From an uncultured Rhodospirillaceae bacterium (GTDB lineage Bacteria; Pseudomonadota; Alphaproteobacteria; RF32; CAG-239), in contig OMQZ01000160.1 of the NCBI GenBank assembly GCA_900313355.1, positions 1 through 12,165 on the forward strand: DNA of 12,165 bases, read 5' to 3'. The notes beneath the pieces are model-generated. The model saw nothing but the letters and a program-made list of their open reading frames with translations. It searched no databases and was not told the DNA's origin. The stretch's first letter is position 1, and each line of letters opens with the position of its first letter. Below, piece by piece: positions 2,643-10,479 of this stretch. The position numbers and the translations under genes were made by a program.

Positions 2643-4133
2643 ATGTCTTTAAATATCGATAAAGTATATCAGGACGCGTATGACGCCGAAGTTAAGCGTG
2701 CATACGGTCAAGCAGTTGAAGAATATAGCGCACAACGTGTGCAGGCTGAACAAAACGAGGATTTTGAAACAATACCGTTCTTTCAAGAAAGCCTGAAACT
2801 TGCCGAAGAAAACGCAAGGCTTGATGAGCAATATCCGGCTTATGAGGGTGAGACAATCGACATTAACGGCGTGCAGAAAACCGTTTATAACTCAAACGGT
2901 GAGCGTATAGCCATATCCGCTGAGGCGTTAAGGAACTTCTATAACTGGTTTGGTGATAGTAAGGTTGTTGATGAACAAGGTCGGCCAAAGGTCGTTTATC
3001 ATGGAACAAACGCAAGGTTTAGCGTGTTTAGCACAGATTTTGAGAGCAACGGCAAGACTCTCGGCGATGGTTTTTATTTCTCAAACAACACGGATGCCGC
3101 AGAGGATTATGGAAAGTATAGGGTGGATGTGTATTTATCTTTGGAAAATCCGCTATTTTTGGATGAAGATAATGCGTATAATGTTTTTGAAAACGAATTA
3201 GGAATATCTAAAGACGAAATTGAAGGATGGAAAAATTATTACAGCAATAGCAAGTGGCATGTTGTGAATCGTATTTTCTCAGAAGATAATTTAACGAATG
3301 TTATAAAAAATAAAGGATATGATGGAATAATATGCACGGATAGAACATCTTTTGGCAGAGATTATCCTATAAATGAATACGTTGCCTTTGAGCCTGAGCA
3401 AATCAAATCCACATCAAACAGAGGCACGTTTAGTAAAGACAATCCGGATATTTATTATCAGAGCGGTGTGGTGGACAGTGTAAAGAATTTATTTAAGCCT
3501 TTAGTTAAGGATATTAGCCAATTTAGAAGTATTTTTAGAAAAACAATCAGAGGTGAAGTCGGCGAAAATACTATATTACAAATTTCTGAAAGAACGCCAG
3601 AAGTATATAAAATGCTTGGGTTAGATGATAAACCAATGGGTATATCAAACAAAACAATTAAAAAAGCAAATATAGGAAAGCACGATGTTCCGTTAGATGT
3701 TTTAGAAGAATTACCGGAATATATTTTTGATCCGATTGCTGTGCTTGATTCAAAAACGAATAAGGGAAGCCTCGTTTCTATTTTGAACGCTGTTGATAAA
3801 AACGGTGATACGGTTGTTGCAATTATAAAACCGACAAAGGGTAAATACAATATCATACCGAGCATTTACGGAAAAGACGATTTAGACAACCTTATAAAAA
3901 GCAGTAAGATAAGATATAAAGATATAGAAAGAGCCAACATTGCTATCAGACCTTCCTCGCTCCAATTGCTTGGGGTGGATAACACCGTTGGCTCATTAAC
4001 TAAGTCAAGTATAACACCATCTGAGGCGAATGTCAAGAAAAATCAGCAGAAGTTTTATCAAGGCGAGAGCAATCCGCTTGGCGCTTATATGCCTGCCTCA
4101 AGGGTTATACACTTGTTTAAGAAAGTGGGATAA
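2643..4133 (+). CDS. Polyvalent-protein fragment: ADP-ribosyltransferase-like plus phage MuF-C/PBECR-like domain
   Basis: A 496-residue protein with no signal peptide. Residues 1-75 are charged and helical. Residues about 78-115 carry the linker motif common before these domains (ALRNFYNWFGDSKVVD). Residues 115-272 match the ART-like domain of phage and conjugative-element proteins, with candidate triad H120 (VVYHGT), Y145 (GFYFS) and E245 (NEYVAF), ending in the usual NRGTF..NPDIYYQ. Residues 310-430 resemble the MuF C-terminal/PBECR putative nuclease domain (GKHDVPLDVLEELPEYIFDP, then SIYGKDD). The last 28 residues (YQGESNPLGAYMPASRVIHLF) resemble the point where larger polyvalent proteins enter a zinc-peptidase-like domain, but a stop follows at once, so the C-terminus looks truncated. 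Start chosen by AAGGA 9 nt upstream. A toxin or effector role is inference; no immunity gene is recognisable. Confidence 0.8.
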   Translation: MSLNIDKVYQDAYDAEVKRAYGQAVEEYSAQRVQAEQNEDFETIPFFQESLKLAEENARLDEQYPAYEGETIDINGVQKTVYNSNGERIAISAEALRNFYNWFGDSKVVDEQGRPKVVYHGTNARFSVFSTDFESNGKTLGDGFYFSNNTDAAEDYGKYRVDVYLSLENPLFLDEDNAYNVFENELGISKDEIEGWKNYYSNSKWHVVNRIFSEDNLTNVIKNKGYDGIICTDRTSFGRDYPINEYVAFEPEQIKSTSNRGTFSKDNPDIYYQSGVVDSVKNLFKPLVKDISQFRSIFRKTIRGEVGENTILQISERTPEVYKMLGLDDKPMGISNKTIKKANIGKHDVPLDVLEELPEYIFDPIAVLDSKTNKGSLVSILNAVDKNGDTVVAIIKPTKGKYNIIPSIYGKDDLDNLIKSSKIRYKDIERANIAIRPSSLQLLGVDNTVGSLTKSSITPSEANVKKNQQKFYQGESNPLGAYMPASRVIHLFKKVG

Positions 4134-4777: not shown

Positions 4778-4828
4778 ACGTGTGGATTTAACCTAACTTG
4801 TCCGGCACTAAACGGACTAAACAAGGAG
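4778..4828 (+). ncRNA. SAM-II/SAM-V-like riboswitch upstream of metK
   Basis: A compact H-type pseudoknot can be drawn. P1 is GTGT (4780-4783) with GCAC (4805-4808). P2 is GTCCG (4800-4804) with CGGAC (4813-4817). The loop GGATTTAACC (4784-4793), the following TTG (4798-4800), and CTAAACAAGG (4817-4826) closely resemble the conserved GAUUUAACC, UUG and CUAAA-AAGG elements of SAM-II and SAM-V aptamers as I remember them. The 3' end runs straight into the Shine-Dalgarno AAGGAG (4823-4828). Known members bind S-adenosylmethionine and hide the ribosome site, so high SAM would lower translation of the SAM synthase. SAM-II versus SAM-V cannot be settled by eye. Confidence 0.72.
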
Positions 4829-4836
4829 ATTTTAAT

Positions 4837-5844
4837 ATGCTTAAAACAGCAGAATTTGTGTCTTTAGGACACCCCGATAAAACAGCAGATTTCATTTCAG
4901 AATATATTTTAGATCGTGCTCTTGAACAAGATCCGAAGGTCAAATATGCCGTTGAGGTGATGGTCAAGGGCAACACTGTCGTCCTGGGCGGCGAAGTCTG
5001 CTCTAACATCGAATTAAAAAACATCGAAATATATGTCAAAGATGCCATTCGAAAAATCGGTTATGATGAACACTATCATCAAATTTGGGGCGAAAATGCA
5101 CTTGATGTCACAAGCTTAAAAATCATCAACCTGATTGGGTGTCAGTCTTGTGAAATTCTTCAAGGCGTCGAAAACGGCGGTTGGGGCGACCAAGGCGTTT
5201 TTGCAGGTTACGCATGCCAAGGCGAAGGTCTGCTCCCAAGAGAGCTCTTTTTAGCAAAAAAGTTGAACAACGCCCTTTATACAAAAGCCTTAAAATCAGA
5301 CAATTTAGGTCTTGATATCAAAACGCAAATCACCATCGATAATAAAGGCAAAATCAAAACAGCAATTGTTGCCATCCCAATGCTCAAACCTCAAGATTTG
5401 ACATCATTTATTGAAAAAACCTTAGGCGCTTGCCCTGCTGAGCTCATCATCAACGGCACAGGCAACTACACTTGCCATAGCGCAATTGCCGATTGTGGCA
5501 TTACAGGCAGAAAACTCGCTTGTGATTTTTATTCCACCACATGCCCTGTCGGTGGCGGCTCACCATGGGCAAAAGATGCAAGCAAGGCAGATGTTTCCTT
5601 AAACATTTTAGCGCGCAAATTAGCTGTTCAGCACCTCAAAGACAATGATGAAGTCTTTGTTTATTTGTCATCTTGCATCGGACGTTCAACGCTTCCGAGC
5701 GCCACACTCAAATGCGTCAAAAACGACCAAGTTACATGGCAAAATCTTGAAGGCGATTTTTCACCTCGTGCGGTTATCAAAGATTTAGGGCTTGACAAGC
5801 CTGTTTTTGCCGACTTATGTGCAAAAGGAATCACTGCAATATAA
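4837..5844 (+). CDS. metK: S-adenosylmethionine synthase (methionine adenosyltransferase), short divergent form
   Basis: Makes SAM from methionine and ATP. The true start is the ATG at 4837, 8 nt after AAGGAG; a longer reading from TTG at 4798 would lie inside the riboswitch. The protein has 335 residues against about 380-400 in typical bacterial MetK. Key motifs survive: GHPDK (11-15), metal/K+ site glutamates E40 and E53, GDQG with D118, D160 and K162, GITGRK (221-226), and a phosphate loop GGGSPWAKDASKAD (239-252) with K246, K250 and D252. The usual GGGAFSGKDPTKVDRS form is altered and the usual TYGG before it reads FYSTT. The missing length is in the middle region and at the C-terminus. 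Expected to be active from the residues kept, but clearly an unusual branch. Followed 11 nt later by the NIF3-like gene, probably one operon. Confidence 0.9.
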   Translation: MLKTAEFVSLGHPDKTADFISEYILDRALEQDPKVKYAVEVMVKGNTVVLGGEVCSNIELKNIEIYVKDAIRKIGYDEHYHQIWGENALDVTSLKIINLIGCQSCEILQGVENGGWGDQGVFAGYACQGEGLLPRELFLAKKLNNALYTKALKSDNLGLDIKTQITIDNKGKIKTAIVAIPMLKPQDLTSFIEKTLGACPAELIINGTGNYTCHSAIADCGITGRKLACDFYSTTCPVGGGSPWAKDASKADVSLNILARKLAVQHLKDNDEVFVYLSSCIGRSTLPSATLKCVKNDQVTWQNLEGDFSPRAVIKDLGLDKPVFADLCAKGITAI

Positions 5845-5855
5845 AAGGAAAACAA

Positions 5856-6182
5856 ATGGAATTTAACTATTTCAAATTAGATATTTTCATCCCCGAAACA
5901 CATCTCAAACTTTTGCAACATGCTTTGCAAAAAGCAGATGCCGGACATTTCGGAAAATATGACAGCTGCCTTTCATATTCTCATGTCACAGGCGTTTGGC
6001 GCACACTTGACGGTGCAACCCCCTACCTCGGCAAAATCGGTGAAATATCTGAAGAACCGGAAATCAAGGTTGAAGTTGCTTGTAAAAAAGAAAACTTAGA
6101 ACAAACCATTCAGGCAATCAAAGCTGTTCATCCGTATGAAGAACCCGTGATAAACATCATTCCGATGACAATCGCCTTATAA
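5856..6182 (+). CDS. Stand-alone NIF3/YqfO-like domain protein
   Basis: 108 residues starting at ATG 5856 with AAAGGA 7-8 nt upstream; the longer frame from 5817 would overlap metK. Motifs of the YqfO-type domain found inserted in NIF3 family proteins are present: IPETH (12-16), GKYDSC (33-38), TGVWRTLDGATPYLG (45-59), EVRIE-like KVEV (71-74) and HPYEEP (92-97). The fold resembles CutA/PII-type ferredoxin-like domains. The biochemical role of stand-alone members is not established. It sits 11 nt after metK and before a shared terminator, so it is probably co-transcribed and may fall under the same SAM control at the transcript level. Confidence 0.8.
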   Translation: MEFNYFKLDIFIPETHLKLLQHALQKADAGHFGKYDSCLSYSHVTGVWRTLDGATPYLGKIGEISEEPEIKVEVACKKENLEQTIQAIKAVHPYEEPVINIIPMTIAL

Positions 6183-9832: not shown

Positions 9833-9850
9833 AAAGCGTTTTTTAAAAAA

Positions 9851-9889
9851 AAGTTTCAAGCATTTTCAAATACTTGAAACTTTTTTTAT
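9851..9889 (+). terminator. Terminator of pyk
   Basis: AAGTTTCAAG (9851-9860) with CTTGAAACTT (9873-9882), 12-nt loop, T tract after it. A-run before and T-run after can extend the stem. Confidence 0.9.
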
Positions 9890-9920
9890 ACAAAATATAC
9901 AAAATTTTTAAATTTTTGTC

Positions 9921-9949
9921 TTGACGTGTTTTAAAAAATATGGTATACA
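9921..9949 (+). promoter_or_regulatory. Strong promoter of the unassigned RNA gene
   Basis: TTGACG (9921-9926), 17-nt spacer, TATACA (9944-9949). Predicted start near 9957. Confidence 0.75.
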
Positions 9950-9956
9950 TTTTTCC

Positions 9957-10479
9957 AGAAACCAATTATGAAGATACAGATATGAAAACCATCTATAGAC
10001 TGACGCCGATGTAGCTTAAGTCCTGGGATTAGACAAGGCTTGATCCCCGCCAAACGTAAAATTTAGAAAACGAAAAAACAAACGCCATGACACGAGGACC
10101 TACCATTCTTATGGCTAGTACCCAGATCCAGAACTGATCAACGACGGCCGGCAGCCGAAGAAGCGCGTAACTCCTATCCCCCGCAACCGAGCGGCACGAT
10201 TGGGAAACGCAGCGAAGAATCGGCAAAAAAAACGCAACCTCAAATGGAAGCAAAAAACAAGAGCCCAACTCGGGACACTTTTTAGGCAAGGTGGAAATAC
10301 CACCCCAAGGAGACACTAACACTAAAACCTACCTACCGATGTAGTAGAAAGTGGCTTCAAGCACCTTCGTTGCCATTCTCAGTAAAGCAACACCGAAGAT
10401 GCGAACGCACCCCTTCCGTAGTAAGGCACGCGATTTTTACATACTCTGAGAGGCCACCCCCGAAAGGGGGATTTTTTTT
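9957..10479 (+). ncRNA. Unassigned long structured noncoding RNA
   Basis: About 520 nt between a good promoter and a strong terminator, with no convincing ORF. It is GC-rich against an AT-rich background (40 of 60 bases G or C in 10141-10200), as structured RNAs are in such genomes. Helices visible by eye: 10025-10032 with 10040-10047 (seven-base loop), 10100-10106 with 10111-10118 around TCTT, 10290-10294 with 10300-10304, the CTAC/GTAG stem around 10327-10347, 10365-10373 with 10387-10398 (9 bp, three-base bulge), and 10412-10415 with 10423-10426. The loop TCTCAG (10377-10382) can pair with CTGAGA (10446-10451), a long-range pseudoknot. CCGATGTAG occurs twice (10006-10014, 10336-10344). I looked for tmRNA (including the permuted alphaproteobacterial form), RNase P, SRP and 6S hallmarks and found none that fit, but distance from the known forms remains possible. 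Confidence 0.65.
10457..10479 (+). terminator. Terminator of the long RNA
   Basis: CCCCC, GAAA tetraloop, GGGGG (10457-10470), then A and eight T. No T tract follows on the minus strand, so it serves the plus-strand transcript and not the opposing gene. Confidence 0.93.

Follow-up and report, generated by a model that had tools for sequence, protein, structure and literature searches.

A candidate free-standing string of conserved minigenes with a structured 3' domain downstream of pyk in uncultured Rhodospirillaceae

Introduction

Open reading frames (ORFs) on which ribosomes stall are known as switches ahead of single genes. Dual-function small RNAs of the SgrS/SgrT type are organized differently, as free-standing transcripts that combine a small ORF with a structured 3' part. 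Among the described leaders, toiL of E. coli topAI is reported as a short ORF sensing several drug classes (PMC12121999), and the Salmonella mgtCBR leader is reported to carry two tandem ORFs (mgtM and mgtP), one of which is proline-rich (PMC3641672). Arrest peptides of the RAPP type (ApcA, ApdA, ApdP, and SecM) are described as ending in RAPP, RGPP, RAPG, or RAGP, as needing an N-terminal region beside the motif, and as lying upstream of genes (PMC12992588). An inverse toeprinting study reported intrinsic pauses at XP(P), PP(X), and XP(C) in the absence of drug, and erythromycin-dependent pauses at +X(+), XP(X), XP(W), and +X(W) (PMC6238534). Proline-rich peptides acting on terminating ribosomes are also described, including insect ones (PMC10449632, PMC11347161), and the large ornate bacterial RNAs GOLLD, ROOL, and OLE are described as long RNAs whose function is not known (PMC12286853).

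Here we examined positions 9921-10479 of a 12,165-nt stretch of DNA from an uncultured Rhodospirillaceae bacterium (hereafter the window; contig OMQZ01000160.1, assembly GCA_900313355.1, forward strand). Comparative sequence analysis indicates that this feature is a conserved string of minigenes with a structured tail, outside Rfam. Like ErmBL, toiL, and mgtM/mgtP, it combines RNA structure with very short ORFs whose codons or motifs are prone to stalling, but those leaders precede the gene that they control, whereas the unit described here ends at its own terminator and holds up to five named ORFs per locus. It resembles the SgrS/SgrT type in that a stand-alone transcript, a promoter, a structured 3' part (six of eight loci), and a terminator can all be recognized in the sequence, yet it has several ORFs of 7-20 codons rather than one longer ORF. 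The predicted transcript is long, as are GOLLD, ROOL, and OLE; unlike them it has no Rfam match, its fold is weak overall in most loci, and it contains conserved tiny ORFs.

A predicted transcription unit outside the known RNA families

In the window, the feature sits between pyk (Pfam PK) and a convergent gene for an I42-type inhibitor, and it is delimited by the following elements.

9921..9949 (+), promoter TTGACG-17-TATACA, its layout kept in all seven loci that include the promoter
10457..10479 (+), intrinsic terminator CCCCC-GAAA-GGGGG-A-U8; a terminator also closes each other locus

A preliminary description of this DNA had named the promoter, a GC-rich body, and a GNRA-capped terminator, and all three held on examination. 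The consensus over the seven promoter-including loci was TTGAC(A/C/G), exactly 17 nt, and TATA(A/C)(A/G); the window promoter was absent from the list of a promoter scanner whose rule requires T as the sixth base of the second hexamer. GC content is 0.474 in the body, 0.386 across the window, and 0.195 in the flank at 9834-9956, and the terminator hairpin is GAAA-capped. The transcription unit is real and, in our best reading, free-standing rather than a gene's leader. The predicted RNA, approximately 520 nt from its own promoter, would carry tiny genes followed by a pseudoknotted 3' domain, with its own terminator directly after.

The gene beyond the unit differs among species. It was found to be the I42 inhibitor in the window genome (G000), a Bor lipoprotein in G002, EF-Ts in G003, and a CvpA-like gene in G008, while the neighbors in G005, G006, and G007 were similar to the I42 inhibitor by eye and that of G001 was a 437-residue ORF. 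The neighbors are convergent in G000, G003, and G008, and the Bor gene of G002 lies on the same strand approximately 200 nt past the terminator. Because the neighbor changes between species, the loci have no gene in cis in common.

No Rfam 15 family reached its threshold in the window (6S, SRP, GOLLD, ROOL, OLE, and the rest included). The best sub-threshold match was NsiR1 (21 bits, E 0.12, positions 10419-10478), and the fetched regions of seven homologous loci returned tRNAs only. The preliminary view that the RNA belongs to no recognized family was therefore borne out. Its companion suggestion of a very diverged housekeeping RNA fared poorly. Such an RNA would fit in size, but an alpha_tmRNA gene lies elsewhere in the same genome (G000:C120, E 6.7e-66) with no alpha_tmRNA match in the window; tmRNA is expected once per genome, and this reading is refuted for G000. 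RNaseP_bact_a likewise had no match in the window, and RNase P was found at other places in eight of the 11 genomes of the genus. Six of these eight carry the unit (G001, G003, G005, G007, G008, and, in part, G002). In G000 (an incomplete genome), G006, and G009 no RNase P turned up, so that RNase P is excluded only through sister species. Given also that Rfam found nothing beyond tRNAs in the seven homologous loci, we consider a diverged tmRNA or RNase P RNA to be exceedingly improbable.

Other features of the window were also noted. Upstream, positions 2643-4133 (+) encode a 496-residue protein with two Pfam domains, an ADP-ribosyltransferase of polyvalent proteins and, at the C terminus, a phage MuF domain, perhaps a phage remnant. 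An S-adenosylmethionine synthetase ORF lies at 4798-5844 (+; 348 residues from TTG as listed) and is overlapped by a CutA1-like ORF at 5817-6182 (+), the latter a weak match at 24.8 bits compared to a cut-off of 22.4.

Distribution within and beyond the genus

We assessed the interval downstream of pyk in the 11 genomes of the genus in the collection used (G000 to G010). Promoter, body, and terminator were found directly downstream of pyk in seven of these (G000, G001, G003, G005, G006, G007, and G008). G002 is an eighth, in which the contig begins inside the unit and the 3' part was found by model R1 (E 4.2e-7). The unit thus recurs more than chance would allow. G004, the closest relative (pyk 96% identical in protein and 88.7% in DNA), had no unit, and its pyk terminator abuts the I42 gene. 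At this locus (L055, G004:C39, approximately 2302-2365) the T-run of the pyk terminator is followed at once by the 3' end of the I42 gene, an arrangement for which a loss between the two terminator T-runs would account; G004 either lost the unit or never had one. G009 and G010 have other genes downstream of pyk and no unit. No R1 match in G004 was better than E 0.39, and G009 and G010 gave no match at all up to E 1.

Of 27 new loci downstream of pyk in other genera, 19 were inspected, over at most 520 nt each (185 nt in one), and none of these showed such a unit. Across 126 family genomes, every R1 match other than the six loci bearing a 3' domain had an E value of at least 0.004. Three of the weak matches outside pyk loci (E 0.004-0.093), namely L106, L107, and L108, were inspected and judged to be chance. 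Across 384 other genomes of the class there was none at E 0.01 under strict filters, with eight candidates scored per listed genome. Because loci without the 3' domain, such as those of G003 and G008, escape R1, a wider presence is possible. We also rejected 74 viral contigs that matched the pseudoknot pattern as chance (best R1 E 0.71), and of eight weak DNA matches elsewhere to the G003 and G001 loci, the six that were inspected showed no array. A second copy of the unit was looked for in G000 and not found at an E value up to 0.06, nor did the model give a good match in any other place (remaining matches E 0.07 or more). The literature found under general terms, as opposed to the organism name, does not name the locus.

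Tiny ORFs with conserved peptides

The preliminary description had seen no convincing ORF in the body. There is indeed no long one, but three short ORFs of the window have counterparts in other species that are conserved as peptides, and this part of the description must be revised. The ORFs and the block around the last of them are as follows.

9968..9985 (+), possible ORF of five codons, MKIQI, which overlaps ORF A at its start (ATGA), seen in the sequence only
9982..10014 (+), ORF A, MKTIYRLTPM, TAG stop; start and stop align automatically with G007
10087..10137 (+), ORF B, MTRGPTILMASTQIQN, TGA stop, behind an A-rich leader; start and stop align automatically with G007 and G005
10225..10309 (+), block of 85 nt containing ORF C and its leader, 100% identical in G006
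10244..10285 (+), ORF C, MEAKNKSPTRDTF, TAG stop, identical in G006

Between one and five named ORFs of 7-20 codons were recognized per locus in the genus, three of them in the window, and their peptides share the recurring cores RLTP/RLVP, RP(F/Y)xP, (I/T)R(G/A)P, and RPPP. The counterparts of ORF A (class A) are MKTTHRLTPI in G007, MNKTKHRLVPF in G001, and a more distant MDKQNMHRRAVF in G003. A further class, A2, comprises MKKRTRPYAPT (G005), MKKTRPFAPT (G003), MKKYRPFCPT and MKTRTRTRLYAPG (G001), and MNTKKTRPFAPY (G008). Class B, which is weak in its second half, includes MIRGPNILAATQNFIN (G005), MIRGPNMVATQNLSNK (G007), and MIRAPDFRRYEHEIDF (G001), with MTTINSPPILGTPQLLSEKK of G003 perhaps a further member. 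The position of ORF C is occupied by MESKTRPPP in G001, MENKDPP in G005, MNAKTRPPPC... in G007, and MWRIRPPPWHLRPSTQ, which begins MWRIRPPP, in G002, and class C also includes MKMKIRPPP (G008). The G007 RPPP frame lacks the early stop and continues to 35 codons. No counterpart of MKIQI was found in the other loci, and an MFNPSG... pair (G001 and G005) that overlaps a stem was excluded from the counts.

Along the unit, ORFs follow in the order A, A2, B, and C, the 3' domain coming last; species may lack one or more of these elements, and in G008 the RPPP ORF comes first. G006 retains only a recognizable ORF C and has no counterpart for ORFs A and B. The 85-nt block is fully identical between G000 and G006, compared to 80.2% identity of their pyk DNA, which could reflect either an exchange of modules among species or a constraint of unusual strength. 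In the G005 locus (L053, G005:C123, approximately 2205-2350) an extra stretch was noted between ORF A2 and ORF B that, by eye, seems able to form long stems.

We assessed coding in eight ORF pairs aligned by hand, with start and stop codons excluded; MAFFT alignments A2 and A3 had lost the frame and were not used. Differences at codon positions 1, 2, and 3 numbered 26, 23, and 46, giving a third-position share of 46/95 (binomial p = 0.0016), and replacements were more conservative than relocated ones in all eight pairs (p 0.0008 to 0.0475, combined 2.5e-9), although these values are optimistic because the choice of peptides, pairs, and motifs was made by eye. A choice-free check was made with MAFFT alignments of whole loci in nine pairs. 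Among the 12 aligned ATG starts of 6-40-codon ORFs, nine belonged to named ORFs, and the five that also had aligned stops were all named. The G000-G007 alignment gave three aligned starts, each of a named ORF, while the pairs G001-G002, G001-G003, and G003-G008 gave none. The four peptide motifs, which were derived from the loci themselves, occurred in 19 of the 53 short ORFs counted across the eight loci (three nested; none in G006) compared to 0 of 4300 distinct control short ORFs taken from other DNA of loci L001-L113, mostly from family genomes.

The named ORFs also differ in what precedes their starts. The A content of the 20 upstream nucleotides was 56% for 21 named ORFs compared to 33% for 47 other ATGs of the loci (p = 2.6e-7), and a Shine-Dalgarno-like word (AGGA, GGAG, or GAGG) preceded none of the 21 named starts compared to five of ten ordinary ORFs of the window. 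Coding of the tiny ORFs is well supported by these comparisons, and we consider it very likely that they are translated. The codon-like substitution that the preliminary description had listed as a refuting result for a structured RNA is thus present, in the tiny ORFs upstream of the 3' domain.

RNA structure and the 3' domain

The structural elements of the predicted RNA in the window are the following.

10025..10051 (+), pseudoknot-capable element after ORF A, GGGAU/AUCCC with GGC/GCC, in G000, G007, G005, and G001
10147..10224 (+), GC-rich region separating ORFs B and C, with stems in the predicted fold, GCCGGCAGCCGA ... UCGGC
10333..10344 (+), hairpin P0 of 4 pairs, paired through different sequences in G005, G006, and G007
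10365..10398 (+), 3' domain hairpin P1/P2 with loop UCUCAGUAA, pairing kept while sequences differ in six genomes
10377..10382 (+), pseudoknot loop partner UCUCAG, 5-6 pairs possible in six of eight loci, invariant
10446..10451 (+), pseudoknot 3' partner CUGAGA, pairing with the loop at 10377-10382

Folded as a whole, the body of the window unit was only weakly better than its shuffles (z = -1.48), 7 of 100 of which folded just as well. Over seven loci z ranged from -0.52 to -7.08, with -7.1 in G008, -3.4 in G005, -3.2 in G007, and -0.5 to -1.6 in the other four. In the G001 version of the element after ORF A the first stem is GGGU/ACCC, and GCCGGCAGCCGAAGAAGC within the GC-rich region is identical in G001.

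Stems P1 and P2, which support the pseudoknot, show compensatory changes in six genomes, and P0 does so in four. Alignment A4 was off by two columns at the pseudoknot, so the stems were checked row by row with anchored blocks. The loop-to-3'-end pseudoknot of the preliminary description was recovered: TCTCAG at 10377-10382 can pair with CTGAGA at 10446-10451. The loop CUCAG and its partner CUGAG never vary across loci that have the 3' domain, and the pseudoknot is thus a conserved possibility whose own pairs are unable to covary because both partners are invariant. G003 and G008 are without the 3' domain. As for the proposal of a new class of long bacterial noncoding RNA, the last 110-150 nt do behave as structured RNA in six of eight loci, but the region upstream, with its codon-like substitutions in tiny ORFs, does not conform to it.

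In G001 (MRPSAQ) and G002 (the end of MWRIRPPPWHLRPSTQ) the last ORF stops at a UAA inside the loop CUCAGUAA. Because the stop lies inside the loop, a terminating ribosome would have to open the hairpin, and such a placement would couple translation to the 3' fold in these two species. A general placement of stops in hairpin loops, striking on visual inspection, was rejected (mean 0.23 for 20 ORF stops compared to 0.25 for 159 other stop triplets), as was the AUG-UAG in P0 (10341-10346) as a minigene, given that P0 pairs differently in each species.

Stall-prone composition of the peptides

We examined the 20 distinct peptides for residues and motifs associated with ribosome pausing. Proline was present in 19 of 20 compared to 1155 of 2817 control ORFs, and PP in 6 of 20 compared to 77 of 2817. 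[KR]x[KR] was found in 11 of 20 (controls 527/2817) and [KR]xR[PL] in 10 of 20 (controls 43/2817). In this respect the array reads like a collection of published pause motifs. However, none of the three peptides of the window contains [KR]xR[PL], and [KR]x[KR] occurs in ORF C alone, which counts against a stalling reading. The peptides also recall the RAPP type through Arg-x-Pro cores, the G001 class B peptide beginning with MIRAPD and others with MIRGP or MTRGP, but RAPP, RGPP, RAPG, and RAGP occurred in none of the 20. At 7-20 residues, peptides this short hardly offer the N-terminal region that RAPP-type arrest is reported to need, a further point against stalling. A different likeness is to the type II proline-rich antimicrobial peptides drosocin and apidaecin, described as short Arg-Pro peptides that act on terminating ribosomes; these are made by insects and act from outside. 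Single words such as RPYAP may resemble them.

Discussion

The comparisons support, at the level of sequence, a conserved unit, conserved tiny peptides with codon-like change, and a structured 3' domain. Because the peptides are rich in stall motifs and the neighboring gene changes between species, we tentatively favor, short of even confidence, a free-standing array of stall-prone minigenes with a structured 3' domain that senses translation stress and acts in trans. Ribosomes would load at the A-rich leaders and translate the tiny genes into peptides of 7-20 residues built on Arg followed by Pro (RLTP, RPFAP, RGP, RPPP). Going by the published motif strengths, XP(X), PP(X), and, in many peptides, +X(+) may make the ribosomes pause or arrest under translation stress, possible stresses being a drug in the exit tunnel, a shortage of EF-P, or scarce Pro or Arg tRNA. 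More speculatively, the pattern of stalled ribosomes could set RNA folding or cleavage, and the 3' domain, whose loop CUCAGUAA is invariant, could be the output acting in trans. A fuller version, which we hold with more doubt, is a multi-input sensor of translation stress without an attached gene, in which each ORF would watch a different stress and combined occupancy would set the fold or fate of the 3' domain, again acting in trans.

Next after the stress sensor ranks a dual-function RNA, in which the 3' domain would be a base-pairing or protein-binding sRNA and the peptides trans-acting products that do not stall their own ribosomes. The conservation of the peptides, the separate structured domain ahead of the terminator, and the precedent of proline-rich peptides acting on terminating ribosomes (PMC10449632, PMC11347161) all speak for it, and we regard it as possible though rather unlikely. 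The peptides vary between species and within a locus more than a fixed target suggests, G006 does without counterparts of ORFs A and B, and no secretion or processing genes were seen adjoining the unit. A third reading is a structured noncoding RNA whose tiny ORFs are by-products of conserved RNA sequence; it would draw on the covarying stems P0, P1, and P2, the invariant pseudoknot, and the low fold z of G008, G005, and G007. Yet the z of the other four loci, the third-position excess and conservative replacements, the A-rich leaders, and the recurrence of the peptides where the DNA of the loci no longer aligns (G003 and G008) make it improbable.

A tandem attenuator or leader whose cis target has moved or been lost is more improbable still. 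Its serial short ORFs and hairpins would resemble leaders such as that of mgtCBR (PMC3641672), and short ORFs with a conserved peptide are indeed found; a controlled gene downstream on the same transcript is not, given the unit's own terminator and differing neighbors, which are convergent in three genomes and on the same strand only well past the terminator in G002. The identity of the 85-nt block against the more divergent pyk, along with the absence from G004, G009, and G010, could instead suggest a small mobile or decaying element with ORFs common by recent descent rather than selection. We give this slightly less credence than the lost leader, since the unit keeps the same place downstream of pyk in seven genomes, its ORFs change in a codon-like manner, and neither a second G000 copy nor a good match elsewhere was encountered within the E values given above.

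These findings point to bacterial genes of 7-20 codons that escape both ordinary annotation and Rfam. They also carry a caution for long "noncoding RNAs" picked by eye or by fold alone, which can be strings of minigenes. If the stress-sensor reading is true, a self-terminated transcript made mostly of stalling ORFs would show that, in cells, sensor and gene are separable.
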